Virus record (IMG/VR): IMGVR_UViG_3300030429_000047
Coordinates: 1 to 43,019 of that record
Strand: one strand, 5' to 3'
Source of the DNA: a virus
DNA length: 43,019 nucleotides
The position numbers and the translations under genes are program-made. Under the pieces are notes generated by a model. That model had not been told where the DNA came from and did not search any database. It saw nothing but the letters and a program-made list of their open reading frames with translations. Below are positions 968 through 23,828 of this stretch, one piece after another; the first letter of the stretch is position 1; the number at the start of each line of letters is the position of its first letter.

Positions 968-985
968 TAAATTAAAAGGCAAAAG

Positions 986-2796: not shown

Positions 2797-2805
2797 GGTG
2801 ATCAC

Positions 2806-3063: not shown

Positions 3064-3171
3064 ATTAGCAGAAACTCACCGAGAAGTGTAACTAAAAAAT
3101 AGTTACGATTAACATTGTTTTCAATACACGACATATGGTGTATTGGCTATCTGATGACATACAATAGAAAG

Positions 3172-4236: not shown

Positions 4237-4316
4237 GTTTTAATGTTGCGTTCTAAGCAACTGCCATGATATCTATATTCCACAAAATGCAATATTCACA
4301 AAATGGAGAAAAAATA

Positions 4317-4490: not shown

Positions 4491-4500
4491 TCCGCTGGTG

Positions 4501-4743: not shown

Positions 4744-4746
4744 TTT

Positions 4747-4854: not shown

Positions 4855-4936
4855 GACACTTATAGGGTAATTGACAAAGAGTATTGCATATTAGTCAATG
4901 TTAGTGGTAGAACATTTCGATAAGTGAAATAATAAA

Positions 4937-5239: not shown

Positions 5240-5247
5240 TGCTGACC

Positions 5248-5825: not shown

Positions 5826-5833
5826 GATCTTTT

Positions 5834-6493: not shown

Positions 6494-6563
6494 AGTGGCC
6501 TCTTTTTGTAAAAGCTACAATGTGGTACAAAAAATAATTTATTTAGATGTTGATATTTATGAA

Positions 6564-7076
6564 TTATTTTTTGCTATTAACCGATTTGATACCCATAGGT
6601 TTAAACTCACCACTTTCATCTGCTCGTTTTTTTTGCAGTTCTGCAGCTTGCTCCCTTTTTCGATACGTCCATAGCCGATAATCTGGATCATTTATTAAAA
6701 AATCCCGTTCCATTTTCGATAGAAAATCGTTTATCGCTATGGAGTTTTCACCGTAAGATTCAATCAAAAAATCAAAAAGATGTTGAAACTTCCACATAAT
6801 CTGCTCGTACTTCTGAATGCTTTTCATTGGTGGTGGCTCTGAAACAGTCTGTAAGTGCTGCTGATTAAATTCTTCTTTTTCAAGTCCAAGAATCCATTCG
6901 ACGCTCATCCCCGTTGCTTTCGAAATTTTTGCAAGTATTGGTTGACCTGGGATTTTTCCTTCAAGAGCGCTTCTGACAGTTTTTGCGTCTATGCCACATT
7001 TTTTTCCGAATGCCGTTGGACTGCTTTCTTTTAAAAGGATTTTTATCCTTGAAATAAAAATATTTTCTATAGACAT
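6564..7076 (-). CDS. CI-like phage repressor without a peptidase domain
   Basis: A 170-residue protein. The N-terminal helix-turn-helix (SSPTAFGKKCGIDAKTVRSALEG, then ATGMSVEWILGLE) is of the Xre/CI type. The C-terminal half (MKSIQKYEQIMWKFQHLFDF and on) lacks the Ser-Lys self-cleavage domain, so derepression is unlikely to be by RecA-stimulated autocleavage. I chose the ATG at 7076; ATGs at 7103 and an alternative codon at 7148 would extend the protein into the operator region. It faces the Ner-like gene across three palindromic operator-like sites. Confidence 0.8.
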   Translation of the reverse strand: MSIENIFISRIKILLKESSPTAFGKKCGIDAKTVRSALEGKIPGQPILAKISKATGMSVEWILGLEKEEFNQQHLQTVSEPPPMKSIQKYEQIMWKFQHLFDFLIESYGENSIAINDFLSKMERDFLINDPDYRLWTYRKREQAAELQKKRADESGEFKPMGIKSVNSKK

Positions 7077-7109
7077 GTCAGTGTGTTGCCTGTTTTTTCC
7101 CATAGCAAT

Positions 7110-7163
7110 GGAATTATTTCCGGATAAATGGGAAAATATTCCTTGCAACCGGGAATATTTTCA
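7110..7163. promoter_or_regulatory. Three operator-like palindromes between repressor and Ner-like gene
   Basis: GGAATTATTTCC (7110-7121), GGAAAATATTCC (7131-7142) and GGAATATTTTCA (7152-7163) share the form GGAA-N4-TTCC. Their centres are exactly 21 bp apart, two helical turns. A half-match (TTCC) continues the series at 7089-7100. This is the layout expected of a cooperative lambda-type operator controlling divergent repressor and cro/ner promoters. A possible plus-strand promoter is TTGCAA (7143) and TATTTT (7166), which would give a nearly leaderless mRNA for the gene at 7179. Confidence 0.7.
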
Positions 7164-7178
7164 GATATTTTTGTATCC

Positions 7179-7388
7179 ATGACTAAGACACAAATCATAG
7201 GCGCGATAAGACTGATGACCGGCAAACCGGTGGCGGACGTAGCCGTAGAGAATGGCTACTCGAAGCACACTTTTTACCGTGTCATAAAAGGAGAGAGGAA
7301 TATCCCCGAGGTTCGGGAGATCATCTCTTCAATAGTCCATAAAAGCGCAAACGAAATATGGCCGGAACGGCCCGCAGGAGAGGAATAA
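7179..7388 (+). CDS. Ner/Cro-like regulator
   Basis: A 69-residue protein starting MTKTQIIGAIRLMTGKPVAD. A helix-turn-helix (VADVAVENGYSKHTFYRVIKG) is followed by a helix and ends with EIWPERP, the signature close of Mu Ner and its relatives. It would repress the lysogenic promoter and early genes during lytic growth. The start at 7179 has no Shine-Dalgarno; an upstream ATG at 7128 would run through the operators and is rejected. It is first in the rightward early transcription unit, divergent from the CI-like repressor. Confidence 0.75.
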   Translation: MTKTQIIGAIRLMTGKPVADVAVENGYSKHTFYRVIKGERNIPEVREIISSIVHKSANEIWPERPAGEE

Positions 7389-7437
7389 AAAAGTCCTCAT
7401 CCCCTGGACGCAATTCCGGTTGTCGAGCTGGCACTTG

Positions 7438-7485
7438 GCAACCTAACAGGGGGTGGGGCATTTTCGCAAGTAGAAAGTAGGTTGC
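7438..7485. other. Inverted repeat in the gap after the Ner-like gene
   Basis: GCAACCTA (7438-7445) and TAGGTTGC (7478-7485) are perfect inverted copies 32 bp apart in the 207-bp gap 7389-7595. No gene is visible in this gap. The repeat could be a regulator site or an RNA stem; nothing decides between them. Confidence 0.35.
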
Positions 7486-7595
7486 GGGAATGGATATTTC
7501 ATCCTAAGCCCGTAAGTTTCAATGATAATCTCACCGATTGATTTTCAACCAGGGCGAGATCTTAAGATCAGTCAAATAAAATGGAGGTTCCGAGA

Positions 7596-7826
7596 ATGAC
7601 GAAAGAAAAGGTTTCACGGGTTTCCATATGTGACGGAGCAGCAAAACTACTGCAGGAAATGGCAGAGCAGCAAGGCGTGACGCCGCGTGAGTATCTCGAG
7701 GCGCTTCTTCATTACGCGGGCAGCTGCCATAAACGGCCTGGCTCATGGGAAGCATGCCAGCCCTTCGATTTTGCAAGCTATGACAATCGCACCAAGAATG
7801 GGCAATTTGCCGATAGATGGTTTTGA
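7596..7826 (+). CDS. Small ribbon-helix-helix-like protein
   Basis: A 76-residue protein starting MTKEKVSRVSICDGAAK. GGAGG lies about 8 nt before the ATG at 7596, which I prefer to the in-frame ATG at 7581 that overlaps this Shine-Dalgarno. Residues 5-45 (SRVSICDGAAKLLQEMAEQQ, VTPREYLEALLHYA) read as a short strand followed by two helices, the ribbon-helix-helix plan, so it may bind DNA as a dimer. The C-terminal 30 residues are unassigned. It lies in the early regulatory operon between the Ner-like and CII-like genes. Confidence 0.6.
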   Translation: MTKEKVSRVSICDGAAKLLQEMAEQQGVTPREYLEALLHYAGSCHKRPGSWEACQPFDFASYDNRTKNGQFADRWF

Positions 7827-7850
7827 AAATTTCGACGGAAAATTATCAAC

Positions 7851-8333
7851 ATGAAATCAATTTATTACAAACAGGTTAAAACATTAAAGCAGGCTCTTTA
7901 CGATACCATTCATCATCACGACACATTGTCGGTCGCGGCCATCGCCGAGCAGATCGACATGGCGCCCTCATATCTATACCGCGCTGCTACCCTCGATCCT
8001 GATACAGAAGGGCCCGAGGTAAGCGGTGTTCGTTTCCCATTGAAGTATCTCATGCCTTTGATTCGCGTGACCGGGGACTTCCAGATCCTTGACCTGATCG
8101 AGTTTTCTTTAGGCCGGGTTGCTATCCCAATTCCAAAGCCTGAAAAGGATTGCACTGCAGATCTGCAGACAAAAGCGCTCAACGCAGTTATCGAGTTCGG
8201 CGATTTTATAAAGGCGGTCACAGCTTCCATTAAAGACGGCACCATCACTGACGAAGAACAGAAAAAGCTGGAGCGCGAAGGCAACGACGCTATCCAGGCC
8301 ATTATGATATTGCTTTCAGCAAAGAGCAAATAA
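7851..8333 (+). CDS. CII-like phage regulatory protein (CP76 type)
   Basis: A 160-residue protein. The N-terminus (KQALYDTIHHHDTLSVAAIA, then EQIDMAPSYLYRAATLD) is a helix-turn-helix. The next segment, VRFPLKYLMPLIRVTGDFQI, and the C-terminal helices (LQTKALNAVIEFGDFIKAV, ITDEEQKKLEREGNDAIQAI) match the plan of the phage regulatory protein CII (CP76) family. Members control the lysis-lysogeny choice in some temperate phages. It follows the Ner-like gene in the rightward early operon and is the second or third regulator there. Confidence 0.7.
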   Translation: MKSIYYKQVKTLKQALYDTIHHHDTLSVAAIAEQIDMAPSYLYRAATLDPDTEGPEVSGVRFPLKYLMPLIRVTGDFQILDLIEFSLGRVAIPIPKPEKDCTADLQTKALNAVIEFGDFIKAVTASIKDGTITDEEQKKLEREGNDAIQAIMILLSAKSK

Positions 8334-8334
8334 C

Positions 8335-8526
8335 ATGGGCCTTGCTGAAGAGGTAGCCGAGCTTCGCCGCGAGATAGCGGAACTGACGCGCCTTATAACC
8401 AACATGGTGGCACCTGCGACCAGCCTTTCGATAGCCGAAAAGTCGCGACTGATCCGCGAGGCCCATGCCTCGGGCAACAAGGCCACCATTCGCAAAACAA
8501 CCAAGTTCATCAACAGTAAGGGGTAA
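8335..8526 (+). CDS. Small helical protein of unknown function
   Basis: A 63-residue protein. The first 25 residues (MGLAEEVAELRREIAELTRL) form a short coiled coil. The rest (SIAEKSRLIREAHASGN, ATIRKTTKF) could be a minimal DNA-binding helical hairpin. It starts one base after the CII-like stop, so it is in the same operon. No family recognised. Confidence 0.55.
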   Translation: MGLAEEVAELRREIAELTRLITNMVAPATSLSIAEKSRLIREAHASGNKATIRKTTKFINSKG

Positions 8527-10580: not shown

Positions 10581-10586
10581 CATCTA

Positions 10587-10633
10587 CTCATGGCATTTCG
10601 GTTCTCAGTACGCTGCCCTCTATCAACTCATGG
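10587..10633 (+). repeat. 47-bp inverted repeat, left arm
   Basis: Pairs with 10813-10859 with 7 mismatches in 47. The best-conserved core is ACGCTGCCCTCTA (10609-10621). Each end carries a CTCATGG iteron. Confidence 0.8.
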
Positions 10634-10812
10634 CTTTTAACTATAGATAAACACAAAGGAAAAGGGTCTTGCCATGAGGACCATGAGCAAATTGCAGACG
10701 CGCGTACGGAAGATAATATTACTCTGTTTTTTTACTTTCCATGTCACGTATACATTTTACTCATGTTACTCATGGTAAGTAATATTATATATATATATCA
10801 ATATGTTATTTA

Positions 10813-10859
10813 CCATGAGTTAGTAGAGGGCAGCGTATTGAGAGGCCAAAAGCCATGAG
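10813..10859 (-). repeat. 47-bp inverted repeat, right arm
   Basis: Inverted copy of 10587-10633. Its right end overlaps the Shine-Dalgarno (GAGGAGGG) of the primase gene at 10872, so binding here could also control primase translation or transcription. Confidence 0.8.
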
Positions 10860-10871
10860 GAGGGCTTTTTT

Positions 10872-13389: not shown

Positions 13390-13642
13390 GGCTGGTTCTG
13401 AACTGCTCTATCTACCCCACCGCGACAGTTATGTGTGGCAGCGTCCGGCAAATGGCAGGTCACCTGAAGAGGTGGCGATTGTCGCCGGTAGCGATGGTGA
13501 GGCGCTTCGCGAAGTGCTGATCGTCTTTCTCTGTGAGTTGCTCGGGCTGAGTTTGGATGACGAATTTTCTTTTATGTTGGTTAACGCTCTGGTTGATCGG
13601 AAATCTACTGATCTTTTGAGGTGTCAACATGGGCAGGCGTAA
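13334..13642 (+). CDS. Phage protein of unknown function
   Basis: A 102-residue protein overlapping the end of the terminase small subunit by 56 bp. The start is uncertain: ATGs at 13304, 13334 and 13379 are all in frame. I use 13334, with AGGA 6 nt upstream. The central segment VFEAGSELLYLPHRDSYVWQ and the C-terminus (LCELLGLSLDDEFSFMLVNA) suggest a small mixed alpha/beta protein. No family recognised. It overlaps the next gene by 14 bp. Confidence 0.5.
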   Translation: MSSEISREVVATRTVMVFEAGSELLYLPHRDSYVWQRPANGRSPEEVAIVAGSDGEALREVLIVFLCELLGLSLDDEFSFMLVNALVDRKSTDLLRCQHGQA

Positions 13643-14087
13643 ATTTGATTTAACCGGTCGCACCTTTACCCGCCTTCATGTAATCGAGGAAGATGTCACG
13701 CTTCGCCCGGGTAAGTCGAACGGTATCCGCTGGAAATGCCGATGCGACTGCGGCAATGAACTCACGGTCTATGCCGGAAGCCTGCTGGCTGGGGCAACAA
13801 GGTCCTGTGGTTGCATCCGGAGAAGTGTTCGGCTGGTAACTGGTCTTGCCGCAGAAATAACACGTGAGGAGGCAAGTAAGGCCGTTCTGCCGGTGGCGGA
13901 TCCCCCAGCTGCCGCGCAAAAAAAATCTGAGACGGTTCGCTGGGCCATGCCTGTTTCACTTGGTATTCCCGCTCACAACCTTACAGCTCCACGGCCAAAG
14001 CGAAAAGTTACAGATAAGCAGGAGCAGGGTTTGCTCGAAGCAAAGCAGTACCTGGCAAGTCGCGGCTCGTTTAAAATTAATTATTGA
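13629..14087 (+). CDS. Zinc-binding phage protein of unknown function
   Basis: A 152-residue protein. Residues 1-65 form a conserved Cys-rich module seen in many phages: FDLTGRTFTRLHVIEE, WKCRCDCGNELTVYAGSLL and TRSCGC. The module is often found alone or joined to HNH nucleases or AP2-type DNA-binding domains. Here no nuclease motif follows; the rest is Ala/Pro-rich and then basic (RPKRKVTDKQEQG). GAGG lies 7 nt before the ATG. A DNA-binding role is plausible. It is the last gene before the first boundary repeat. Confidence 0.65.
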   Translation: MGRRKFDLTGRTFTRLHVIEEDVTLRPGKSNGIRWKCRCDCGNELTVYAGSLLAGATRSCGCIRRSVRLVTGLAAEITREEASKAVLPVADPPAAAQKKSETVRWAMPVSLGIPAHNLTAPRPKRKVTDKQEQGLLEAKQYLASRGSFKINY

Positions 14088-14088
14088 G

Positions 14089-14139
14089 GCGCAGTCGATA
14101 GTATAATCTGGCTTTTGCCAGGTATCAAAAAGGGGGCAG
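14089..14139 (+). repeat. Boundary repeat R1
   Basis: GCGCAGTCGATAGTA, then hairpin ATCTGGC-TTTT-GCCAGGT, then AAAAAGGGGG, ending 5 nt before the GTG at 14145. This is a diverged copy of R2 and R5 with TCGATAGTA in place of TCGAAAGTA. Confidence 0.75.
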
Positions 14140-14144
14140 AAACC

Positions 14145-14705
14145 GTGAAAAAGAAACTTGTTAAAAGCATAAATAGGGTGGTGGACGAGTTGCATTTTTT
14201 GGGCGCTGACAATATTGCCGATGGGATACTTTCAGATATTCCGGAGATTGCCGATATTGCACTCAACAAAGCCGAGCAACAACTCTTTGGGTGGCATTGT
14301 GCACACCAGGGTGAAAGGCTCCCCTCAATGATTCGCGGCATGGGGTTGTCTGTCGAGGAGTGGAATAAACTCAAAAAATCAGGAGATGTTCACTATCTCA
14401 CAGAATCAGAAATAGAGGACATCGAGGACTGCCTTGGCCTCAGAGTTGATAGGAGCCACGAGGAATGCTGCGAGTGTGCGCTCGAGGAAGTGGATCCGGC
14501 GCAATGTAAAGGGCATGTTGCTGGCCCAAGTCCGTGCAGTCTTTTTGTTAAGGTTGCCGATGAAAAATATTATGAAATAATCGGCAAACACACCGGTAGT
14601 GTTATCGGTGTTTGTTCTGGCGATGGCGTTGCAGACGCAAAGAAAGAAGATCCTGGGGCGACGTTCAGAGAAATAACCAAACAGAAGTTTGAGCAGTTTC
14701 AATAA
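14145..14705 (+). CDS. Accessory protein of unknown function, GTG start
   Basis: A 186-residue protein starting (V)KKKLVKSINRVVDELHFLG. Alignment of the boundary repeat with its other copies fixes the GTG at 14145, after AAAAAGGGGG, rather than the upstream TTG. The N-terminal half is helical (NIADGILSDIPEIADIALNK); residues about 110-150 hold a Cys cluster (HEECCECALEEVDPAQC). No family recognised. It is the first cargo gene of the block between the terminase subunits and is framed by boundary repeats R1 and R2. Confidence 0.6.
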   Translation: MKKKLVKSINRVVDELHFLGADNIADGILSDIPEIADIALNKAEQQLFGWHCAHQGERLPSMIRGMGLSVEEWNKLKKSGDVHYLTESEIEDIEDCLGLRVDRSHEECCECALEEVDPAQCKGHVAGPSPCSLFVKVADEKYYEIIGKHTGSVIGVCSGDGVADAKKEDPGATFREITKQKFEQFQ

Positions 14706-14727
14706 TGCTAATGCTAGGGCAAGATAC

Positions 14728-14782
14728 TAACTGACGCACAGTCGAAAGTAGTATCTGGCTTCGGCCAGATCAAAAAAGGAGC
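14728..14782 (+). repeat. Boundary repeat R2
   Basis: TAACTGACGCACAG, the TCGAAAGTA box, then hairpin ATCTGGC-TTCG-GCCAGAT with a UUCG-type tetraloop, then AAAAAAGGAGC. It is nearly identical to R5 at 21788-21843, except for the loop, which is TTTT there. Confidence 0.85.
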
Positions 14783-14788
14783 AGGGAA

Positions 14789-15367
14789 ATGAAGACCGGA
14801 ACCAAAAGCCTGTTGTTCGGTGTGCATCAATTTTTGTGGCACCCAATCACGGTATGGATGGCGTGGGTGTGGTTATTCCGCAAGCTGCCTACATGGAGGG
14901 AAACCGTCTGCATCATTGTCCATGATTGGGGCTATTGGGGTAAGGCCAATATGGACGACGAGGAGGGGGAAAAGCATCCCGAGCTTGGCGCAAAAATAGC
15001 CGGGTGGTTGTTTGACGGTCATGAGCACTGCCGAGCGAATAGTGACCCCCCACGGTGTGGATGTGCTGAATATTACAGATTGTGCCTACTACATTCCAGG
15101 CACTACGCGCGGAACGCCGGGATAGAGCCGTCGAGTTTATGCTGGCCAGATAAGTTAAGCATTATCTTTGAGCCGTGGTGGTTGTACCTCCCCCGCGCAT
15201 GGGCGAGCGGCGAACTCGCAGAGTATCGAAAAATTGCGGCAGTAGCTGGTTTCATCCCTCTGACTGCCACCCATCGTGAGTGGTACAGGTGGATACAGGA
15301 CAGGTTATCTACGCTTGGAAAAGAAAAGCGTGGCGATGTTGTCCCGTATATAAATCCATCTCGATAA
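14789..15367 (+). CDS. HD-domain phosphohydrolase-like protein
   Basis: A 192-residue protein. Metal-ligand-like residues are H45-D46 (VHDWGYWGK), H63 (EKHPELGAK), H102/H105 (LHSRHYA) and D121 (CWPDKLS), an HD-type arrangement. The tail EPWWLYLPRAWASGEL belongs to a family seen in phages and plasmids, generally annotated as hypothetical. HD proteins of this size are often nucleotidases, so phage nucleotide metabolism is possible. GGAGC of repeat R2 supplies the Shine-Dalgarno. It lies in the cargo block between terminase genes. Confidence 0.65.
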   Translation: MKTGTKSLLFGVHQFLWHPITVWMAWVWLFRKLPTWRETVCIIVHDWGYWGKANMDDEEGEKHPELGAKIAGWLFDGHEHCRANSDPPRCGCAEYYRLCLLHSRHYARNAGIEPSSLCWPDKLSIIFEPWWLYLPRAWASGELAEYRKIAAVAGFIPLTATHREWYRWIQDRLSTLGKEKRGDVVPYINPSR

Positions 15368-15392
15368 AATTGATAGGCACAGTGCGAGACAA

Positions 15393-15474
15393 TAACTGAG
15401 ATTTTATCACAACTACCTGATATCAGGTATAATCGAAAGTACAGTCAATCATTTTAAAATTTTAACGATGGAGC
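15393..15474 (+). repeat. Boundary repeat R3 (diverged)
   Basis: ATAACTGAG, then the perfect 16-bp palindrome TACCTGATATCAGGTA (15414-15429), then the TCGAAAGTA box (15433-15441), an AT-rich palindromic stretch, and GATGGAGC as ribosome site. Compared with the other copies the hairpin lies before the box. Confidence 0.65.
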
Positions 15475-15479
15475 AGAAA

Positions 15480-16049
15480 ATGCCCACAATAGAAATCGAT
15501 CAATCTGATTACGATTTGTTGATGGCAATGTCGAAAGAGTTGCAGATGCAAGAAAACGACAGCCAGGCATTCCCGTATTTTTGGGGACCGATGAGCAAAA
15601 AAGAAGGGATCGGGACCAACGACGACGAGCCGAGGATTTATGACGGAAATGCCGCAGAAACTTACACGCCTGATGACTTTGCAGACAACAACGAGGATAA
15701 ATTTTCTCTGTTTTTGGCTGAGAACGAACTGCCAGAAGATACCGAATATATTGATATCGACGAGAGTGAGTGGATGTCTTGGGTTGAAGAAAACTGTCCT
15801 GATTGCAGTATCGTTTACAGCCGGGAAGAAGATGTTTCAGAACCAAACTTTTCCTTATTTAAATCTGACGTTCAAAACCACATCTCGGGAAACCGGCACC
15901 ATCTTGGGAAGAATCCCCACACATACGCCAGAACATTCTTCCGCATGGAAAAGATGGAGGATCTTGTCAGGATTATCTACAGGATGAACCCCATCCCCGA
16001 GGAACAGGTAAATGAAGAGGCTCGTCGATATGTTGTAAAGGTAGGCTGA
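15480..16049 (+). CDS. Acidic accessory protein of unknown function
   Basis: A 189-residue protein starting MPTIEIDQSDYDLLMAMS. The ATG at 15480 is chosen because GGAGC of repeat R3 lies 6 nt upstream; an upstream in-frame ATG overlaps that site. The protein is strongly acidic (DFADNNEDKFSLF, YIDIDESEWMSW), a feature seen in DNA mimics and other inhibitors, but no family is recognised. It is the last cargo gene before the terminase large subunit. Confidence 0.6.
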   Translation: MPTIEIDQSDYDLLMAMSKELQMQENDSQAFPYFWGPMSKKEGIGTNDDEPRIYDGNAAETYTPDDFADNNEDKFSLFLAENELPEDTEYIDIDESEWMSWVEENCPDCSIVYSREEDVSEPNFSLFKSDVQNHISGNRHHLGKNPHTYARTFFRMEKMEDLVRIIYRMNPIPEEQVNEEARRYVVKVG

Positions 16050-16091
16050 CAGATTCTGACTGAATCACACCACATCAAAGGAAAATTTAAA

Positions 16092-18059
16092 ATGCTCACC
16101 TCACCTGGCGCCGTAAAAACATACCGGTTGAAGTCCGCTCCACCCTGGCTGCACCATAGCCTGCGGTCGGGCTTCTCGCACCGGACCAGGTTTACTCAGG
16201 CCGAGCAGCAGATGTACCGGCGGCGCAAGAAGATATCGCCGTCACAGTGGGTGGAGCGGCACCGCTTTATTACCCAGGGGGCGCTTGCCGGGCATCTCAT
16301 GCGGTTGGAGGTATCGCCACACATCGCCGGGCAGATCGACGCCGCCTTCTTTCCTTCGGTGCGGGTGATCGTTATCTGTGCCCCACCGCAGACCGGCAAA
16401 TCGACCGCTGTCGATAGTTGCCACGCCTACGCCATGGATATGGCTCCTGGTCCTATCCTGTCCGTCTATCCCGACGAGACCACCGGTAAGGATAACTGCA
16501 AGGAGCGGATCCACGCGATGATCAACAAGTCGCCACGGCTGCGGGCGCTGAAGACCGGCAATAAAGACGACTTTGCCGCAGGTAAGGTCAAACTTAATAG
16601 CTGCACTTTTTATATCGGCTGGGCTGGATCTGCTTCCTCCACCTCGAACAAATCGATTCGCTACCTTGATCTGCAGGAGGTCGACAAATTCCCCGAGACC
16701 CCGAACAAACGGGAAGGTGACACGATTAAAAACGCCGAGGCCCGTGTAATCGATTATCCGCACAACCATAAAATTTTTATCAGCTCGACTCCGACCCTTG
16801 AGTCTGGTCCGATCTGGCAGGCGTTGACCAAGTACTGCCGAGTGATTTTTGATTATTACGTCCGCTGCCCTTTCTGTGGGCAGGAACAACTAATGGTCTT
16901 TGAGCGGATCAAGTGGCCGAAGGGTGAGGACGGCCATAGCCTTGATCCCCTCCTGATCGCCGAGCAAAAACTTGCCTGGTACGAGTGTGAACACTGCGAC
17001 AGAAAATGGAACGACAGCGCCCGCGACCGTGCCATTCAAACACGAACTTGGCGAGAGCGTCGGGCCGACGGCACGCCGGGGTTGGAGTTGTTTCAATTTT
17101 TGAATCGTCACCGTCCGGCGAATATCGGTTTTCATCAATCGAGTTGGACCTCGTCTCGGGTATCGCTCTCTAAGGTAGCCGCCGATTTTCTCACGGCAAA
17201 CAGCCCGAAACAGGACCCCGGCGACCGGCGCCGGATGTTAAAGGATTTTTTCAACAAACACAGGGCCGAGCCGTGGATGGAGGTAGAGGCGACCAGGCTT
17301 GAAGAGGGTCTCCTTGCCCTGCGAGATGACCGGCCTGAAGGGATCGTGCCGGGCAACGGTCGGGTGGCTCGGCTGGAGTTTGGCGTTGATACCCAGGATG
17401 ACGGTTTTCACTATATGATTTATGCCTTCGGTTACGGTCGAACCCAGAATATGTGGCAGGTAAAAGATGGCTTTGTCGAGAGTTTTGAAGACCTTGAGAC
17501 GGTTCTTTGGGATTTTGAATACTGCACTGCCGACGGCACTCGTATTCCGGTGCATTACGGTCTGATCGATGCCAGGGGGCACCGGACCAGTGAGGTGTAT
17601 GACTGGTGCGCATTGCATCCTGGCAAGGTGCTGCCGGCTATGGGTGAGCAGAATATTCGCGGCGGTCAGCCGTACGATACCGCTGATGTCGAATTTTATC
17701 CAGGTTCGGAAAAGAAAAAGTTCCCAGGGGCTCTCAAGCGAGTACGGGTCAATACCACCTACTACAAGGATAAACTTGACGGCAAACTGAAGGTCGGCCG
17801 CAACGATCCCGGTGCTATCAATTTCCATTCCGAGGTTACCTCCGACACTCTCGCCCAACTCTGCGCCGAGGCCCGCGATGAAAAAGGAGTCTGGCAGCAG
17901 ATCGGCAACCGGGCAAACCATAAACTGGACTGCACCGTCCTGGCGATGGTTGCCGCAGACATGAAAGGCCTCAGGTACCTTGCTGACCCGAGCACAACGG
18001 AATCACAGCCCAGGCCGCAGTCAAGGGCGAAACAAACCCAGAAAAGAGAGAGGTGGTAA
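16092..18059 (+). CDS. Terminase large subunit, lambda gpA type
   Basis: A 655-residue packaging motor and nuclease. Walker A is PPQTGKST (98-105), with a Walker-B-like LDLQEVDKFPE near 193. Cys pairs CPFCG (about 258) and CEHCD (about 298) are typical of the gpA family. The nuclease half has the acidic motifs EFGVDTQDDGFHY and YGLIDARGHRTSEV. AAGGAA lies 8 nt before the ATG. gpA-type terminases cut cos sites, so this phage probably packages from cos. The gene lies after a cargo block rather than beside the small subunit. Confidence 0.95.
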   Translation: MLTSPGAVKTYRLKSAPPWLHHSLRSGFSHRTRFTQAEQQMYRRRKKISPSQWVERHRFITQGALAGHLMRLEVSPHIAGQIDAAFFPSVRVIVICAPPQTGKSTAVDSCHAYAMDMAPGPILSVYPDETTGKDNCKERIHAMINKSPRLRALKTGNKDDFAAGKVKLNSCTFYIGWAGSASSTSNKSIRYLDLQEVDKFPETPNKREGDTIKNAEARVIDYPHNHKIFISSTPTLESGPIWQALTKYCRVIFDYYVRCPFCGQEQLMVFERIKWPKGEDGHSLDPLLIAEQKLAWYECEHCDRKWNDSARDRAIQTRTWRERRADGTPGLELFQFLNRHRPANIGFHQSSWTSSRVSLSKVAADFLTANSPKQDPGDRRRMLKDFFNKHRAEPWMEVEATRLEEGLLALRDDRPEGIVPGNGRVARLEFGVDTQDDGFHYMIYAFGYGRTQNMWQVKDGFVESFEDLETVLWDFEYCTADGTRIPVHYGLIDARGHRTSEVYDWCALHPGKVLPAMGEQNIRGGQPYDTADVEFYPGSEKKKFPGALKRVRVNTTYYKDKLDGKLKVGRNDPGAINFHSEVTSDTLAQLCAEARDEKGVWQQIGNRANHKLDCTVLAMVAADMKGLRYLADPSTTESQPRPQSRAKQTQKRERW

Positions 18060-18290
18060 ATGGCCATGGCAAAAGGCAGTAAGGTTGCAAAAGAAAACGT
18101 TAAAGAACATGCGGCCCTGATCGGGATGAAAGCTATCTGCGAGCATATGAGTCGCAGTGAGGCGACAGTGTTAAAACTGATACAGACGGAGGGCCTGCCG
18201 GCAACGAAGATCGCGGGGATCTGGGAGTCTGACCGGGGTATGATCGACGAATGGCGGCGGGAAAAAATTGCTAACAGGGGGAAATATTGA
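18060..18290 (+). CDS. Helix-turn-helix protein
   Basis: A 76-residue protein. Residues 23-65 (MKAICEHMSRSEATVLKLIQ, GLPATKIAGIWESDRGMIDE) form a MerR/excisionase-type winged helix-turn-helix of the AlpA kind. It starts right after the terminase large subunit stop. Possible roles are regulator, DNA-packaging accessory or excisionase. Its position downstream of terminase rather than near int makes an excisionase less likely. Confidence 0.65.
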   Translation: MAMAKGSKVAKENVKEHAALIGMKAICEHMSRSEATVLKLIQTEGLPATKIAGIWESDRGMIDEWRREKIANRGKY

Positions 18291-18925
18291 ACATTGACTT
18301 GAGAGAATTTTGTTCGGACAAAAATGGTGATCGACGAGATATTCCTATTATTCTCTCGATGCCGTGGTCGGGGGAAAATCACACCTATTACAGCGACGGT
18401 GTGATCATGATCAGGTGCAAAAAAAACGATGTTCCGGAAAACCTCAGCCAGGAGCAAACGTATGTACATGAAACCAAGTTTACGATAATGCTCGAGGCTG
18501 CTGCTAAAGAGTCTTATCTCGGTTTTCTGCCGTTGCCGGAGTTGCCGCCTGCCGTTCCATGTGCAATTTGCAAGGGCAAGGGCTGGGTTATTGTCGCTGT
18601 TTTCCCCGAGTGTGGTGGTAAAGGGGACCTGCTGTTTCAAAACCAATTTTCAGATTATGAAATCGAGTGCAAAAGTTGCTACGGAGACGGAGAGATTCGT
18701 GGAGTCGGTGTGGCGTCTTATCGGAAAATTTGTGGAAGGTGCTGCGGTTCAGGGTTTGGCGGCGATAAATATGCCGGGATTAAAATTGGCGACATAAGTT
18801 TCGCAATAAACCAGCTGCGGCGTATAGCAAAGCTGAGCGGTGTCATGATTAAACCGCATGAAGAAAGGCTTGGTCTGATCAGGTTCGATGGCGGCGACGG
18901 TATTATCATGCCGTTGAATGAGTAG
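18287..18925 (+). CDS. DnaJ-type zinc-finger protein without a J domain
   Basis: A 212-residue protein. Residues about 91-162 carry CAICKGKG, ECGGKG, CKSCYGDG and CGRCCGSG, the CxxCxGxG pattern of the DnaJ central zinc domain; the second unit lacks one Cys. There is no HPD motif. The start is a TTG overlapping the upstream stop, with AGGGGG 5 nt upstream. The zinc domain could hold unfolded protein or bind DNA/RNA. The N-terminal (ILSMPWSGENHTYY) and C-terminal parts are unassigned. Confidence 0.65.
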   Translation: MNIDLREFCSDKNGDRRDIPIILSMPWSGENHTYYSDGVIMIRCKKNDVPENLSQEQTYVHETKFTIMLEAAAKESYLGFLPLPELPPAVPCAICKGKGWVIVAVFPECGGKGDLLFQNQFSDYEIECKSCYGDGEIRGVGVASYRKICGRCCGSGFGGDKYAGIKIGDISFAINQLRRIAKLSGVMIKPHEERLGLIRFDGGDGIIMPLNE

Positions 18926-19256
18926 CATGAAACCATTATTCATTCCGCTCAAAAAAGAATTCTTTCTCGATTTTAAGGATGGCTGGAAAGACGAAGAGTT
19001 TCGCCTCTATGGCCACCGATGGAATGAGAAGACGTGTTACCCTGGTCGGCCGGTTGTTTTGTCACTTGGATATGGCAAGGTAAGGCGATTGAGGGGAAAG
19101 GTTAAGGCCTTTAAAAAACAACGCGCCGACGAGATCTGGTCTGGTGATCAGGAGGATGTGCTTGCGTGTTATGGCACCCTTGATGTTGAGCTTGCCTGTA
19201 TAAAAATTACCGATCTAGAAAATTTGCCGCTGATGCATGGAGGGAATAACCAATGA
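18918..19256 (+). CDS. ASCH-like small protein of unknown function
   Basis: A 112-residue protein with a beta-rich middle (YPGRPVVLSLGYGKVRRLRG) followed by ELACIKITDLENL, a layout like the ASCH/PUA-type RNA-binding fold. The resemblance is weak. The start overlaps the upstream stop; an ATG at 18927 is an alternative. It overlaps the dNMP kinase gene by 4 bp and is co-translated with it. Confidence 0.5.
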   Translation: MSSMKPLFIPLKKEFFLDFKDGWKDEEFRLYGHRWNEKTCYPGRPVVLSLGYGKVRRLRGKVKAFKKQRADEIWSGDQEDVLACYGTLDVELACIKITDLENLPLMHGGNNQ

Positions 19257-19861
19257 TTATCGGAATATATGGAAAAGCGGGTTGCGGGAAATCTACCCTG
19301 GCTGAATTGCTGGTTTCCTTGCTTGGACCAGAGTGGCAAAAAATGTCACTTGGCGATGAGGTAAAAAAAGAGGCAGCGGAAATATTTGAATTTCCGTTGT
19401 GGATGGCGTATCGGCAGGAATCTAAAAATCTTACAGTGCCTGTGCCTTCCTGGATGAAAGACTCTGCCCCCGGTGACGGCTATCTGACTATCAGGGAAAT
19501 CCTGCAGTACTGGGGTACCGATGTGCGAAGAGCGGAAGATCCGGAGTATTGGGTTCGGGCTCTGATAAGGATGCTTCCAGCTGGCAAGCATGTGGTCATC
19601 GACGATATCAGGTTTGTTACTGAGGTTGAATTTATAAAATCGAAGGGTGGCTTGGTGCTCAGGCTCGACCAGTATAACGGATATGAACCGGTGGCAAATG
19701 GGGCCGAGCATATCAGCGAGACCGAGCTTGACGATTATCCGTTTTTTGATCAGCGGTTTTGTCCAAAATTCGGTTTTCTTCGGCAGGTCGCTGAGCAGAT
19801 CGCCGGGGTGATTGCCGCACGAAAACTCTTTCTGTCGACGATATCCCTCTCGATGCCATAG
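19253..19861 (+). CDS. Deoxynucleoside monophosphate kinase
   Basis: A 202-residue P-loop kinase. GKAGCGKST (7-15) is the ATP-binding loop; the segments SLGDEVKKEAAEIFEFP and REILQYWGTDVRR, with VIDDIRFVTEVEFI, match phage T4 gene 1-type dNMP kinases. It phosphorylates dNMPs to dNDPs for phage DNA synthesis. In some phages these enzymes also act on modified nucleotides. GGAGG lies about 8 nt before the ATG. Its C-terminus overlaps the frame of the next small ORF. Confidence 0.82.
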   Translation: MIIGIYGKAGCGKSTLAELLVSLLGPEWQKMSLGDEVKKEAAEIFEFPLWMAYRQESKNLTVPVPSWMKDSAPGDGYLTIREILQYWGTDVRRAEDPEYWVRALIRMLPAGKHVVIDDIRFVTEVEFIKSKGGLVLRLDQYNGYEPVANGAEHISETELDDYPFFDQRFCPKFGFLRQVAEQIAGVIAARKLFLSTISLSMP

Positions 19862-19878
19862 TTGCTGCCCGTGATGCT

Positions 19879-20028
19879 ATGGCTGATGAGTATGTGGCAA
19901 AGACTTTGGCGCTCGAACAGTCATCATTACTTGTTCGCCTGCACGAGAAAAGAATCAAGGAAAGAATAATAATAATCGGACGATATCTGTCTCGGTTGGA
20001 TGCATGGATAAAGGAGATTAAGACATGA
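19879..20028 (+). CDS. 49-residue helical protein upstream of the second recombinase
   Basis: Short ORF starting MADEYVAKTLALEQSSLLVR and ending DAWIKEIKT. It is highly helical and charged and carries an IIII tract. Its frame is open back to 19795 inside the kinase gene, but the first ATG is at 19879. It ends in ATGA shared with the start of the recombinase at 20025, so it is translationally coupled to it. It could be a recombination directionality partner or a spacer gene; nothing proves either. Confidence 0.45.
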   Translation: MADEYVAKTLALEQSSLLVRLHEKRIKERIIIIGRYLSRLDAWIKEIKT

Positions 20029-20879
20029 GTGGTACGACTATCAGTGTGGACTTAGGCGTGAAATCATATATGGACTACCACCGGGCAAACTCACGGCCAA
20101 ACACAATCCGTGGGTTTGAGTACACCCTTAATAAATTTAAAGAATTGTTTTCCGGAAATGATATTGGAGATATCCCTGATTCTGATGTTGCGACATTTTT
20201 GGAAATGCTGACCGATGGGTTGTCTCCTTCGACAAAAAGCAATAGGGCTGGCCAGATATCAGCATTTTTTAATTTTGTTGCTGACACGTTTGAACTGAAT
20301 CTGATTAACCCGTGTGCGAAAGGGATTATAAAAAAACTTTACAAACAACCAAGGCACACTTCTCCTGAACTGTTGGATAAAGAAATTGTTGATGAGATCA
20401 TATATCGGGCGCAGGGGCGGGACAGGCTTATTTTGGAGCTCATGGGCCGTACCGCAATGCGAGTTGGAGAGGTGTTGAATATGCGGGCTGCTCATCTGAA
20501 TGTCGAAGTGAATACCATTCTGATTGAACAACCGAAATCTGGCCGGCAAGGGGAAGTTGTGTATTTGCCGCAGCGGTTAATGCGTCGGCTTGATGATTTT
20601 GTCAGAAAAAACAAGATAGGTAAAAATGATAAAATTTTTGATGTGTCGTACAGCACCGCATTTCGGATGGTAAAGACTCGCGGGGAAGCGGTCGGGGTAA
20701 GGATTCGCCCTCACGACCTCAGGCGTCATGCTGCGACACAGGCATCTCGATCCGGTATGGCACTGGAACTGGTAAGTAAAATTTTGTTGAGACACGCGGA
20801 TATCGCGACAACTCAAAGATATCTCGGAAAAGTGTCTGTGGCTGAAGCGAGTCGGGTTATTGAAGATCTGCTTGGGTAA
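20025..20879 (+). CDS. Second tyrosine recombinase, XerC/D-like
   Basis: A 284-residue recombinase with an N-terminal SAM-like core-binding domain (1-105) and a complete catalytic set: R146 (AMRVGEVL), K171 (QPKSGRQG), H230 and R233 (RPHDLRRH), H257 (LLRHADI) and Y266 (TTQRYLG). It lacks an arm-binding domain, unlike the prophage integrase. AAGGAG lies 7-8 nt upstream. It sits in the accessory region, 18-22 kb from either prophage end, and boundary repeat R4 begins directly after its stop. Substrate sites are unknown; candidates are the boundary repeats or a chromosomal or phage dif-like site. Confidence 0.88.
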   Translation: MSGTTISVDLGVKSYMDYHRANSRPNTIRGFEYTLNKFKELFSGNDIGDIPDSDVATFLEMLTDGLSPSTKSNRAGQISAFFNFVADTFELNLINPCAKGIIKKLYKQPRHTSPELLDKEIVDEIIYRAQGRDRLILELMGRTAMRVGEVLNMRAAHLNVEVNTILIEQPKSGRQGEVVYLPQRLMRRLDDFVRKNKIGKNDKIFDVSYSTAFRMVKTRGEAVGVRIRPHDLRRHAATQASRSGMALELVSKILLRHADIATTQRYLGKVSVAEASRVIEDLLG

Positions 20880-20886
20880 GCAACAA

Positions 20887-20929
20887 TCGAAAGTACAATC
20901 GCGCAAAAGCAATTTTGCGCAAATGGAGC
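20887..20929 (+). repeat. Boundary repeat R4, adjacent to the second recombinase
   Basis: TCGAAAGTA (20887-20895), then a perfect 8-bp hairpin GCGCAAAA-GCAA-TTTTGCGC (20901-20920) with a GNRA tetraloop, then ATGGAGC as ribosome site for the gene at 20937. The stem sequence is unrelated to that of R2 and R5, but the architecture is the same. Confidence 0.75.
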
Positions 20930-20936
20930 ACAATCA

Positions 20937-21755
20937 ATGAGAAAAGTGTTGTTAAGTTTCTCGGGCGGCGAGACATCCGGATATATGACTCACATGGCAA
21001 AAGAGGAGTTTCGCGGGTGTGAGGTCCACTGTGTTTTTGCAAACACTGGTCAAGAAAACGAGGAGACTTTGAGGTTTGTTGAGCGTTGCGATAACGAGTT
21101 TGGCCTTAACGTTGTGTGGGTTGAAGCCGTGATAGATCCCGAGATGCAAAAAGGCACTACTCATAAAATTGTAGACTTCAGGACAGCGCATCGCGGGTTG
21201 GATTTATTTGAAAGTATGTGTGCAAAATATGGGCTTCCGAACAAGTCTTACCCTCACTGTACAAGAGAATTAAAACTCGCAGCCATTAAGAGCTACATGT
21301 CAGATAAGGGCATCTATGAGACAGCTATTGGCATTAGGGCTGACGAATACCGCAGAGTTAACGGAAACCAGGAAAAGATAATATATCCACTTGTTGACCA
21401 TTTTATAACCAAGGATGACGTAAAACATTTTTGGGCAAACCAACCCTTTGGCCTTGGGCTTAGGGATTATCAAGGCAACTGCGTTTGGTGCTGGAAGAAA
21501 AGTGATAAAAAACTGTTCCAGTTGATGAGCGATAACCCACGTGTCCTTGATGCGCCGAAAATACTTGAAAGCAAATACTCAACATCTGGGAATGGTTCCG
21601 ACATTAGAGACACCGGGTGGAGGCAGATGTTCAGGGGTAACAGAACAACTGCAGATCTTTGGAGCGATAAGATTGCAAATTACCTTGGCATGAAACAAGC
21701 AAGATTCAACTTCGATCTTGGTTGTGGGGAGTCTTGCGAGATTTACCAAACATAA
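20937..21755 (+). CDS. PAPS reductase-like PP-loop enzyme
   Basis: A 272-residue protein of the adenine-nucleotide alpha-hydrolase superfamily. FSGGETSG (8-15) is the PP-loop. Downstream, VFANTGQENEETL and the YPHCTRELKLAAIK segment match PAPS reductase-family proteins; Cys pairs CVWCWKK and CGESC may bind metal. Relatives in phages are of unknown function. Possible roles are sulfur or adenylation chemistry on nucleic acids, as in DndC-type phosphorothioation, or simple sulfate reduction. No other dnd genes are present, so modification is speculative. It is framed by boundary repeats R4 and R5. Confidence 0.75.
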   Translation: MRKVLLSFSGGETSGYMTHMAKEEFRGCEVHCVFANTGQENEETLRFVERCDNEFGLNVVWVEAVIDPEMQKGTTHKIVDFRTAHRGLDLFESMCAKYGLPNKSYPHCTRELKLAAIKSYMSDKGIYETAIGIRADEYRRVNGNQEKIIYPLVDHFITKDDVKHFWANQPFGLGLRDYQGNCVWCWKKSDKKLFQLMSDNPRVLDAPKILESKYSTSGNGSDIRDTGWRQMFRGNRTTADLWSDKIANYLGMKQARFNFDLGCGESCEIYQT

Positions 21756-21765
21756 TGCTAGGCAA

Positions 21766-21843
21766 CAATAACGAAATTGACCGATAGTAACTGACGCACA
21801 GTCGAAAGTAGTATCTGGCTTTTGCCAGATATCAAAAAGGAGC
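21766..21843 (+). repeat. Boundary repeat R5
   Basis: CAATAACGAAATTGACCGATA, TAACTGACGCACAG, the TCGAAAGTA box, then hairpin TATCTGGC-TTTT-GCCAGATA and AAAAAGGAGC. The first 45 nt (21766-21810) match R6 (22500-22544) with one difference; the second half matches R2. Confidence 0.85.
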
Positions 21844-21851
21844 GGTGAGAC

Positions 21852-22352
21852 ATGACAGACGGAAGAAGCAAAGCCTGCGAAGACATTATTGACAGGGCAT
21901 GGGATGAAAAGAAAATGATTCCCCTGCAAGACTGGCTTAACAATAATCAGCCGGACGAAGAGGGGATGATTTACGGGAAGGCCGCGGTAAATCAAATCCT
22001 GTGGGTGCGCGACACTTTGAGCTATATGGTTTTAGGCGGTTTTATTTTTGATGAATCAAAAAAGATGCTGACAGTAGACGGCACCCATACCTCGAAATCA
22101 ATATTATTACCTGTTTACAGGTTCGACATGCCTGGGATCAAAATTAAAATCCGTGGAAATTTTCACGATTGGTGCGTCCGGGTGTGGGCTGAACTTAAGC
22201 GGCCATTCCCTGAGTGGATGAATGTCAACCGATATGTTGGATACTTCGAGGGAATGAGTGAGGAAAAATCTCCTGTTTCATTTTGTGTCCGTTCAAAGGA
22301 AGAGTTGTACTCCGTGATTTGGTGGATGTTAAATGAAGGAATTAAAGCATGA
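21852..22352 (+). CDS. Accessory protein of unknown function
   Basis: A 166-residue soluble protein starting MTDGRSKACEDIIDRAWDE, with a Trp-rich middle (HDWCVRVWAELKRPFPEWMN) and SEEKSPVSFCVRSKEELYSV near the end. No family recognised. GGAGC of repeat R5 lies 8 nt before the ATG. The stop overlaps the start of the next short ORF (ATGA). It has a boundary repeat immediately upstream and R6 follows after the next ORF, so the pair 21852-22495 looks like one cassette. Confidence 0.55.
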   Translation: MTDGRSKACEDIIDRAWDEKKMIPLQDWLNNNQPDEEGMIYGKAAVNQILWVRDTLSYMVLGGFIFDESKKMLTVDGTHTSKSILLPVYRFDMPGIKIKIRGNFHDWCVRVWAELKRPFPEWMNVNRYVGYFEGMSEEKSPVSFCVRSKEELYSVIWWMLNEGIKA

Positions 22353-22495
22353 CGCCATGGATGGAGGAAGAAACTTTTTGGCACAAATGCTTTTACGGTA
22401 ATTTCTCTAAACTGCCAGAGCACTATTTCCGTATAACAATTCAGGGAAGATATACGGGCGAGTTTGATTCTTTGCGCGAAATGAATATGTGTTAG
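22349..22495 (+). CDS. 48-residue protein of unknown function
   Basis: A short ORF, MTPWMEEETFWHKCFYGNFS through DSLREMNMC, starting in the stop of the previous gene (ATGA overlap) and stopping directly at the beginning of repeat R6. The translational coupling is the main support. No family recognised. Confidence 0.5.
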   Translation: MTPWMEEETFWHKCFYGNFSKLPEHYFRITIQGRYTGEFDSLREMNMC

Positions 22496-22499
22496 GCGG

Positions 22500-22566
22500 C
22501 AATAACGAAATTGACCGATAATAACTGACGCACAGTCGAAAGTAAAACAAACCAAGTGAGGTTTTA
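22500..22566 (+). repeat. Boundary repeat R6
   Basis: Shares 45 nt with R5 (one difference) up to the TCGAAAGTA box. The hairpin after the box is replaced by a weaker stem, TAAAAC (22543-22548) with GTTTTA (22561-22566), that encloses a GAGG ribosome site for the gene at 22570. Confidence 0.8.
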
Positions 22567-22569
22567 GAA

Positions 22570-22842
22570 ATGGAGCAAAATAAATACAAAAAAGGCGGAT
22601 GGGTTGCTCAGGGCGATAGGATTGGCCGGATAATTGATGTTCACGATTACGATGGGGAGCTACTTATTGACGTTGTTCTGTATGCACCGACTGGAGAAAA
22701 AATTGGCAGAGAATCAGAATCGTTGGATGGTCCTAAGGGATTCGAGCCGTGTTGCGGAGCGGACGGGTGGAAGCCGATAGAAAAACCAGACTTTCCTCTG
22801 AAAAACTACTTCTACCCAAGAGACAAGTTTATCTACCTTTAG
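22570..22842 (+). CDS. Small accessory protein of unknown function
   Basis: A 90-residue protein with an SH3-like beta-rich N-terminus (GGWVAQGDRIGRIIDVHDYD, then LLIDVVLYAPTGEKIG) and a CC pair near residue 59. No family recognised. It follows boundary repeat R6. The next boundary, AGGCGGTCTGC followed by TAACTGAGG (22845-22872), begins right after its stop. Confidence 0.55.
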   Translation: MEQNKYKKGGWVAQGDRIGRIIDVHDYDGELLIDVVLYAPTGEKIGRESESLDGPKGFEPCCGADGWKPIEKPDFPLKNYFYPRDKFIYL

Positions 22843-22881
22843 TCAGGCGGTCTGCTCAATATTAACTGAGGTGCACAACAC

Positions 22882-23067
22882 ATGCAATCAAACGACATCA
22901 AAAGGTGGCAGGATTATATTAATAGAAAAAACGGCAGACCCCTGCGTGTTGAGGATTATTTCGAGGGGCTTGTTGTGTACCACTATCTTGATAATCCCGG
23001 CAAAACTCAACAGGCCAGTGAACAGTATTTTTGTAAAAACATGGTTAGGCAGTCTGCAAGCTACTAA
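22882..23067 (+). CDS. Small accessory protein of unknown function
   Basis: A 61-residue protein, MQSNDIKRWQDYINRKNGRP and on. GAGG lies about 9 nt before the ATG, inside a short boundary sequence (TAACTGAGG) of the same kind as after the gene (AGGCAGTCTGC then TAACTGAGG, 23047-23074). No domain recognised. Confidence 0.5.
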   Translation: MQSNDIKRWQDYINRKNGRPLRVEDYFEGLVVYHYLDNPGKTQQASEQYFCKNMVRQSASY

Positions 23068-23098
23068 CTGAGGGTCAATCTTTTTCTAAGGTAAAAAA

Positions 23099-23275
23099 AT
23101 GGGCAAAGTTGAAGGTTTAAAACCGTGTCCGTGGTGCAAGGGGGACCAACTGATGCACTTGCGCGGGGAAGTCGGCAATCTGCATTGGGTGCATTGCTAC
23201 ACATGCAAGGCTGATGGTCCAGTAGGAATGGATTGGGACGAGGCTAAGGAGCTTTGGGATGACAGAGATGAGTAA
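23099..23275 (+). CDS. Lar-like restriction alleviation zinc protein
   Basis: A 58-residue protein with LKPCPWCKG near the N-terminus and HWVHCYTCKADGP in the middle, ending DEAKELWDDRDE. The order CPxC, a strand, CxxC-x-A-x-GP, and a terminal helix with Trp matches the Lar restriction alleviation family of the Rac prophage, which modulates type I restriction. AAGG lies about 8 nt upstream. It overlaps the next small gene by 8 bp. Confidence 0.7.
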   Translation: MGKVEGLKPCPWCKGDQLMHLRGEVGNLHWVHCYTCKADGPVGMDWDEAKELWDDRDE

Positions 23276-23441
23276 ATTATCAGAAACGACAAACCGTCAT
23301 ACCGAAAAAATAATTTGCCCCAACTGTTCTGAAATACAGTTGGCAACCGTTTACCATACATTCCCCTGGTATTCATATGTGCATGATTGCACGCGGTGCG
23401 GACAAACGATTATGGAAAGTGAGTGGCAATCGACAGATTAA
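23268..23441 (+). CDS. Small zinc-ribbon protein
   Basis: A 57-residue protein starting MSKLSETTNRHTEKIICPNC; CPNC and CTRCGQ form a four-Cys zinc ribbon. An ATG at 23259 is an alternative start. It overlaps the end of the Lar-like gene by 8 bp and is probably co-translated. Its stop is directly followed by ATAACTGATG, a minimal boundary sequence. Confidence 0.55.
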   Translation: MSKLSETTNRHTEKIICPNCSEIQLATVYHTFPWYSYVHDCTRCGQTIMESEWQSTD

Positions 23442-23457
23442 TAACTGATGATCAGTG

Positions 23458-23709
23458 ATGAAAATCGAAAAAGGCATGAAAATTAAGGTGACGCGGCGGA
23501 GAGGCTCAAAAGGGTCTGTGTTTACCGTAGTCAAGATTTTGCGAGACCGAACTCGTGCTGGCATTGTCGATCTGTGGTGCACTTTTAACAACTCTCCGGA
23601 TCTGCACTATTATAACAATATCGTCGAGGATGGCCTATTATCTCCGTTCGATGACGAAACTATTGAGTTGATGCCGGTGGATAAGCCTGTCCAGCGAACA
23701 CTTTTTTAA
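23458..23709 (+). CDS. Small basic protein of unknown function
   Basis: An 83-residue protein, MKIEKGMKIKVTRRRGSKGS then VFTVVKILRD. The beginning reads like a KOW or SH3-type barrel; the C-terminal part (EDGLLSPFDDETIELMPVD) is acidic. No clear Shine-Dalgarno. It is the last gene of the accessory region, before the terminator at 23793. Confidence 0.5.
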   Translation: MKIEKGMKIKVTRRRGSKGSVFTVVKILRDRTRAGIVDLWCTFNNSPDLHYYNNIVEDGLLSPFDDETIELMPVDKPVQRTLF

Positions 23710-23739: not shown

Positions 23740-23792
23740 AAACGCGCAGAAGCGCAAAATTCCCTTTTATCGGGGCTTCATGAAGTTGGATA

Positions 23793-23828
23793 ACCCCAGG
23801 TGCCGGAAACCACCTGGGGTTTATTATT
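23793..23828 (+). terminator. Rho-independent terminator after the accessory region
   Basis: ACCCCAGGTG (23793-23802) pairs perfectly with CACCTGGGGT (23811-23820), loop of 8, followed by TTATTATT. It separates the early and accessory transcript from the head-tail module. Confidence 0.8.

Follow-up and report, generated by a model that had tools for sequence, protein, structure and literature searches.

A recurring boundary with a 7-base core ahead of phage accessory genes and its possible role in cassette exchange

The window analysed here, the 43,019-base virus record IMGVR_UViG_3300030429_000047, carries accessory genes that are preceded by a recurring boundary sequence. Each copy contains a 7-base core, GA[A/T]AGTA (the box), and homology between boundaries breaks at this core. 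The same boundary parts, a head before genes and a tail after them, recur in contigs L037, L007, L266, G5 and G6, which represent five further phages. We propose, with about even confidence, that the boundary is a portable expression leader that doubles as a crossover point for cassette exchange and is shared by this group of phages. How phages take up and arrange accessory (moron) genes has mostly been inferred from mosaic genomes in which no rule is visible. With breakpoints at a fixed core of 7 bases, itself part of an expression leader that can be used repeatedly, the idea of dedicated exchange points would become directly testable. If the exchange were site-specific, phages would have their own equivalent of the shuffling seen in integrons and shufflons, based on a new type of site.

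Architecture of the boundary

The sequence TCGA[A/T]AGTA lies on the + strand at 14095, 14742, 15433, 20887, 21802 and 22536, each time ahead of one of the accessory genes starting at 14145, 14789, 15480, 20937, 21852 and 22570. A sequence-only reading of the window had placed a shared boundary before these six genes, and the observation is real: the boundary (copies R1 to R6) was found ahead of all six, with 25-54 nt between the core and the gene start. The head opens with the core, which has a sharp left edge, and continues with NNATC, a variable stretch and usually a Shine-Dalgarno (SD) sequence close to ATGGAGCA. The variable stretch measures 16-17 nt in most relatives versus 27-29 nt in the window, where a hairpin is inserted. 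All six window copies have a gap of 27-29 nt from the box to a GGAGC or GGGGC motif; a ribosome site close to GGAGC had been described earlier. In R6, GGAGC coincides with the start codon and GTGAGG is the ribosome site.

Gene ends are followed by the tail, which reads GTTAGG..TAACTGA in window copies and GTTAGGAAAAGATTGGTTATAACTGA in the relatives and supplies stop codons in differing frames. Head and tail occur together at R2, R5 and R6. R4 and junctions in L037, G5 and L266 have only the head, and those at 22863, 23065 and 23442 only the tail; the latter are the shorter forms previously noticed after other genes, and they are real. Of TAACTGA-CGCACAG, described earlier as part of the boundary, TAACTGA stands at the end of most upstream genes and is missing from R1 and R4, and CGCACAG is missing from R3.

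The copies form two arrays, both on the + strand. In the first, R1 (14088-14144) consists of GGCGCAGTC and GATAGTA (core 14097-14103), a hairpin (14106-14123) and the SD sequence GGGGGC, and leads into accessory gene A (14145-14705), which has a GTG start, no Pfam or PHROG match and no assigned function. R2 (14713-14788) begins with the tail GCTAGG..TAACTGA (TAACTGA at 14728-14734) and continues with CGCACAGTC and GAAAGTA (core 14744-14750), a hairpin with a TTCG loop (14753-14770) and the SD GGAGC before accessory gene B (14789-15367; no family match). R3 (15368-15479) has TAACTGA at 15393-15399, the core GAAAGTA at 15435-15441, an AT-rich weak hairpin and the SD ATGGAGC, and precedes accessory gene C (15480-16049; PHROG 3205, unknown function).

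The second array is headed by a tyrosine recombinase gene. Here R4 (20880-20936), without a TAACTGA tail, joins GCAACAATC to GAAAGTA (core 20889-20895), followed by the hairpin GCGCAAAA-GCAA-TTTTGCGC (20901-20920), the SD ATGGAGC and a cassette gene with a PAPS-reductase domain (20937-21755; PF01507, phrog_424). R5 (21757-21851; tail GCTAGG..TAACTGA with TAACTGA at 21788-21794, core 21804-21810, hairpin 21811-21832, then SD GGAGC) and R6 (22491-22569; tail GTTAGG..TAACTGA with TAACTGA at 22522-22528, core 22538-22544) both carry CGCACAGTC and GAAAGTA. They precede accessory genes D (21852-22352) and E (22570-22842), whose functions are unassigned. Two short boundaries without a box follow, one at 22842-22881 (tail GTCAGG..TAACTGA, TAACTGA at 22863-22869) and one at 23044-23098 (tail GTTAGG..TAACTGA, TAACTGA at 23065-23071), which precedes a Lar restriction-alleviation-like gene (23099-23275). 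A further short boundary, TAACTGATGATCA, lies at 23442-23454, and a terminator-like hairpin with a T-rich tail (23792-23821) closes the array.

Hairpins with stems of 7-9 bp fold in R1, R2, R4 and R5, with the loops TTTT, TTCG, GCAA and TTTT, respectively, in agreement with the loops described earlier. No clear hairpin was found on folding R3 and R6, and the hairpin is not a constant part of the boundary. It had been suggested earlier that the hairpin controls translation or mRNA processing, which it may do, and most boxes of the relatives have none. That the hairpins are terminators of upstream genes was considered and rejected, as the + strand hairpins run into A or G instead of T. The boundary matched no known RNA family in Rfam.

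With one mismatch allowed, the box alone is mildly enriched in the window (14 matches versus 8.4 expected). The box combined with a GGAGC-type site at fixed distance and a start codon occurs five times, versus a mean of 0.18 and a maximum of 2 in shuffles, and heads also exceed shuffles in L037, L266 and G5. Genuine heads stand 5' of gene starts, in a single orientation relative to the gene and at a narrow SD distance. Their information content is high in the 7-base box, where conservation is partly due to selection, most relatives having been found via patterns containing the box. To the right of the box it is moderate (positions +3 to +6), and to the left it is low save for a TC preference.

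Another reading is an element that acts in expression only, stays with its gene and is unconnected with exchange, with GAAAGTANNAT as a phage -10-like promoter element (mostly TA-NNN-T) and the hairpin as an mRNA stabiliser. The placement, orientation and SD spacing of the heads speak for it, as do the tetraloop hairpins of R2 and R4 and the TANNNT that most copies have after GAAAG. As a full account we consider it improbable: upstream of the boxes there is no -35-like conservation, the element is missing from the window's core and structural genes, and the homology breaks at the box, the recombinant halves and the two orientations of a G5 segment described below would be left unexplained. The head may well be a promoter in addition; a consensus promoter scan of the window gave 20 versus 12.6 +/- 3.6 in shuffles, which is no clear margin.

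Homology breaks at the core

Judged by terminase, the nearest kin of the window are L038 (88% identical) and L037 (83%). Capsid, portal, terminase and replication proteins of L037 are 53-83% identical to those of the window, and the only accessory genes in common are those for the recombinase (86%) and for a protein of ~60 aa before it. Core genes sort the phages into at least two unrelated types, window/L037/L266 versus L047/G5/G6. The earlier proposal of a cassette-like array exchanged at its boundaries is supported by these relatives, in which the same boundary stands before differing genes and homology breaks at the box.

A PAPS-reductase-like cassette is present in three phages (L037, G5 and L266), with two contexts in G5. 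Starting at GAAAGTA and running up to the following gene's leader, the L037 and G5 copies show 75% nucleotide identity; the genes on either side are unrelated. Its four left flanks, GCGTAATTC, GACCACTAA, GCCATATTC and GCGCGATTG, each end at the edge of GAAAGTA. The left flank TAACTGACGCACAGTC, in turn, is joined to three unrelated right sides (R2/R5, R6 and L007), which have the 7-base core alone in common.

Boundaries were also compared pairwise over 16 nt on each side of the core. R5 and R6 match at 16 of 16 positions on the left and 4 of 16 on the right; R2 and L007 match at 15 and 5, and the G5 boundaries G5A and G5g2 at 16 and 7, respectively. For G5A and G5B the pattern is reversed, with 5 matches on the left and 16 on the right. 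Across all boundary pairs, left and right similarity are uncorrelated (r = 0.07). R5 is a hybrid: its left half is like R6 (one difference in 45 nt, as had been noted before, and 93% over 55 nt), and its right half is like R1 and R2 (84% over 56 nt for R1), the three copies being similar across 56 nt.

A segment in two orientations in G5

Bases 1-8405 of G5 are the reverse complement of bases 59851-68255 with one mismatch, which is located in the junction. This 8.3 kb segment has a DnaB helicase gene at one end. At the dnaB end the contig shows two junctions (GAAAGTATAATCAG and GAAAGTACAATCAACC), one with the PAPS-like cassette and one with a different cassette; the opposite end adjoins the PAPS-like cassette. 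The crossover partners share 13 bases with one mismatch. Because they differ in their flanks (AA or TC) and in the base following the box, the exchange, limited to the first 7 of these bases, would fall within GAAAGTA. On the simplest reading, the G5 genome is circular or permuted and contains an 8.3 kb segment that can invert and that would have been assembled in both orientations. The 127-base overlaps at the ends of G5 appear to resemble assembler k-mers.

The mid-prophage recombinase

A complete Xer-like tyrosine recombinase of 284 aa is encoded at 20025-20879 on the + strand. R4 had been described as lying directly after it, and indeed the R4 box starts 7 nt past the recombinase stop codon. 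The protein is 86% identical in L037 and 90% in L047, and the gene neighbourhood differs in each. With its small partner of ~60 aa, it is found before the terminase in L037; in the window the pair follows the dNMP kinase gene. A box comes after the recombinase in the window and L037/L038, not in L047. The best profile match is the XerA model NF040815 (120 bits), and the protein is closest to XerA/XerD models and to an archaeal XerC-like structure. Its match to Phage_integrase extends as far as residue 267 of the 284, which leaves no space for a C-terminal domain. Searches of phages and plasmids returned just distant relatives of the recombinase, below 60% and ~25-30% among the matches listed.

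The dNMP kinase-like gene (19253-19861, + strand) has a relative in L266 with a box and cassette directly after it. At 19780-20024 of the window, the end of this gene and the start of the small gene preceding the recombinase are seemingly fused, unlike in L047 and L037; this appears to be a non-box junction of the recombinase pair.

A recombinase followed by a box raises the question whether the array is a phage integron, in which the 284-aa recombinase would be the integrase, R4 the attI site, and tails and heads the attC sites. The likeness consists in an array of single-gene cassettes, a constant 7-base core amid differing sequence on either side, a recombinase heading one array (with the box next to it in L037/L038 as well), and GTTAGGC within some tails. 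The recombinase reaches 51.9 bits against the IntI model TIGR02249, whose cut-off is 265, and with XerA as its best match is not of the IntI class; the core is GAWAGTA instead of GTTRRRY. No foldable attC is seen, as the tails fold unconvincingly (z 0.18 and -2.13), and GTTAGGC stands before TAAC, opposite to the order in attC. Many junctions are without a core, and L047 has the recombinase without a box. Enzyme score, core sequence and attC layout rule out membership of the integrons, and we consider a phage integron a very improbable explanation.

A model for cassette exchange

In the model of a portable leader that doubles as a crossover point, the cassette head (core GA[A/T]AGTA, NNATC, spacer or hairpin, SD near ATGGAGC) would bring its own translation start, and many cassettes end in a stop-codon-rich tail, GTTAG..TAACTGA. 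By crossover at the 7-base core, cassettes would be gained, lost and reshuffled between phages, each recombinant taking its left flank from one partner and everything rightward of the core from the other. If inverted cores recombine, the segment between them would flip. The boundary parts and the constancy of their order, the differing genes at equal junctions, the homology breaks and the contig with both orientations are observed. We infer a conservative, site-specific crossover, a function of the leader in expression, and catalysis by a Xer-like enzyme, for example the one at 20025-20879, possibly acting in trans. In its most specific form, the model would describe a phage-borne exchange system with an asymmetric 7-base core at gene starts that doubles as the expression leader. 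Single accessory genes would be transferred between unrelated phages, and genome segments inverted, by a Xer-like recombinase encoded in cis or by another prophage in the same cell. We offer this form tentatively and consider it rather unlikely.

Several observations weigh against the model. At many internal junctions a tail is present and the core is absent, and the conservation of the box partly reflects how the relatives were found. The L047 recombinase, at 90% identity, has no box after it. A search of the G5 genes found no encoded tyrosine or serine recombinase, and G5 encodes a RecT-like annealing protein. The inversion rests on one metagenome contig and may be an assembly or amplification chimera. 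Because L037, which has the recombinase, and G5 come from one and the same metagenome, the enzyme acting on G5 could possibly be supplied in trans. Of the earlier idea that this recombinase exchanges a gene array at the boundary repeats, the array and the exchange are supported; the recombinase is a candidate, next to a box in the window and L037/L038, not in L047, and absent from G5.

The main rival is that portable leaders are swapped by ordinary homologous or RecT/Red-type recombination, for which the ~33-nt leader and the tail would provide short homology and no site-specific enzyme would be needed. The RecT-like protein of G5 and its lack of a site-specific recombinase are in line with this, as are the ~30 nt that short-type heads have in common from core to SD and the 56 nt over which R1, R2 and R5 are alike. 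It is harder to reconcile with the G5 partners, which share just 13 bases with one mismatch and cross over within the first 7, and with the TAACTGACGCACAGTC flank, which meets its three right sides via the core alone. We regard such recombination as possible, if on the unlikely side.

Comparison with known systems

Mobile regulatory cassettes of T4-type phages (promoter-stem-loop cassettes, PeSL) reportedly are short intergenic expression elements with stem-loops before shuffled accessory genes, and short homology is said to have been proposed as the basis of their exchange. In this they resemble the boundary. They differ in that here the hairpin is optional (a PeSL-type stem-loop is present in four of the six window copies and missing in most relatives), the 7-base core is constant, breakpoints lie at the core, and the phages involved have unrelated cores.

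In cluster K mycobacteriophages, the 13-bp start-associated sequence (SAS) GGGATAGGAGCCC is located beside the start codons of non-structural genes and carries the SD AGGAGC (PMC3203893). About half of the SAS have an additional inverted repeat upstream, the 17-bp extended SAS (ESAS), for which the authors think mRNA folding unlikely (PMC3203893); the placement of both is also documented elsewhere (PMC12699233). The boundary, too, is a repeat at non-structural gene starts, in one orientation and with an SD (AGGAGC in SAS, GGAGC here). A sequence comparison found no 13-bp GGGATAGGAGCCC and no 17-bp repeats; the SD context here is ATGGAGCA or AAAAGGAGC, and the stems are 7-9 bp. Unlike SAS and ESAS, the boundary has a separate core upstream and a stop tail downstream, and it is at the core that homology breaks off.

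The shufflon site sfx is asymmetric, with a 7-bp core, a conserved right side and a variable left side, and segments between inverted sites are flipped by the invertase Rci (PMC11852207). The layout of the boundary is similar in its 7-base core and in a right side more conserved than the left, but this right side is far less conserved than a 12-bp arm; the G5 segment, present in both orientations in one contig, may be a comparable inversion. The sites mark gene starts across phages, not the variable ends of one gene. No Rci-type invertase with an extra C-terminal domain adjoins the sites: the window encodes a short, Xer-like enzyme instead, and G5 has no tyrosine recombinase. By the features tested, the boundary resembles T4 cassettes, SAS and shufflon sites and is identical to none of them.

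Distribution of the boundary

Scans with head patterns yielded G5 (3300024999_000091), G6/G7 (one phage) and L007. A tail pattern search added L266 and L185, and nearly all other matches, save known contigs, were due to chance; L266 was selected by its tail alone, yet bears a head. The pattern CGCACAGTCGAAAGTA retrieved an identical fragment (L005), a chance coding match (L006) and L007. No boxes were found in the distant terminase relatives L040-L045, searches with a 15-mer and an ATCAAA pattern returned no additional true boundary, and a portal search using a two-sequence alignment added nothing. A comparison of the R5 boundary DNA with cultured phages gave no meaningful match. Two candidates were rejected: TCGAAAGTA in the L047 contig sits in repetitive coding DNA, and the sole exact 18-mer match in cellular genomes, in a Bifidobacterium contig, was judged to be chance.

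One boundary of L007 (4064-4163) contains a perfect 23-bp inverted repeat that separates its tail TTTAACTGA from AAACTGACGCACAGTC and looks like an inserted small hairpin element. Two G6/G7 contigs are identical over 15.6 kb and diverge leftward exactly at TAACTGA, at their starts (L153, position 6; L156, position 120 on the reverse strand). This divergence may be contig-end noise, one contig retaining 5 bases, or a tail-site exchange.

Other features of the prophage

The genes of the window include a phage integrase, repressor, primase, terminase, portal and capsid. A tRNA-Arg gene is found at 42930-43006. A 54-nt direct repeat, 91% alike at 1934-1987 and 42921-42974, overlaps this tRNA gene and likely represents attL/attR; the prophage therefore probably extends from ~1934 to 42974, and bases 1-1933 may be flanking DNA. 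The large terminase gene (16092-18059, + strand; 83% identical in L037) is a core gene 3' of the first array, and homology to L037 picks up again at 23876, past the second array.

The integrase gene's initial ~78 bases are present in three copies (4159-4236, 4777-4854 and 5162-5239; 83-88% alike), the second and third joined to other sequence. This suggests that former integrases left them behind or that recombination took place repeatedly next to the integrase. Between two primase genes, at 10584-10862, lies a large imperfect palindrome with 50-nt arms that are 84% complementary and a smaller palindrome nested within, which makes this region a candidate replication origin.

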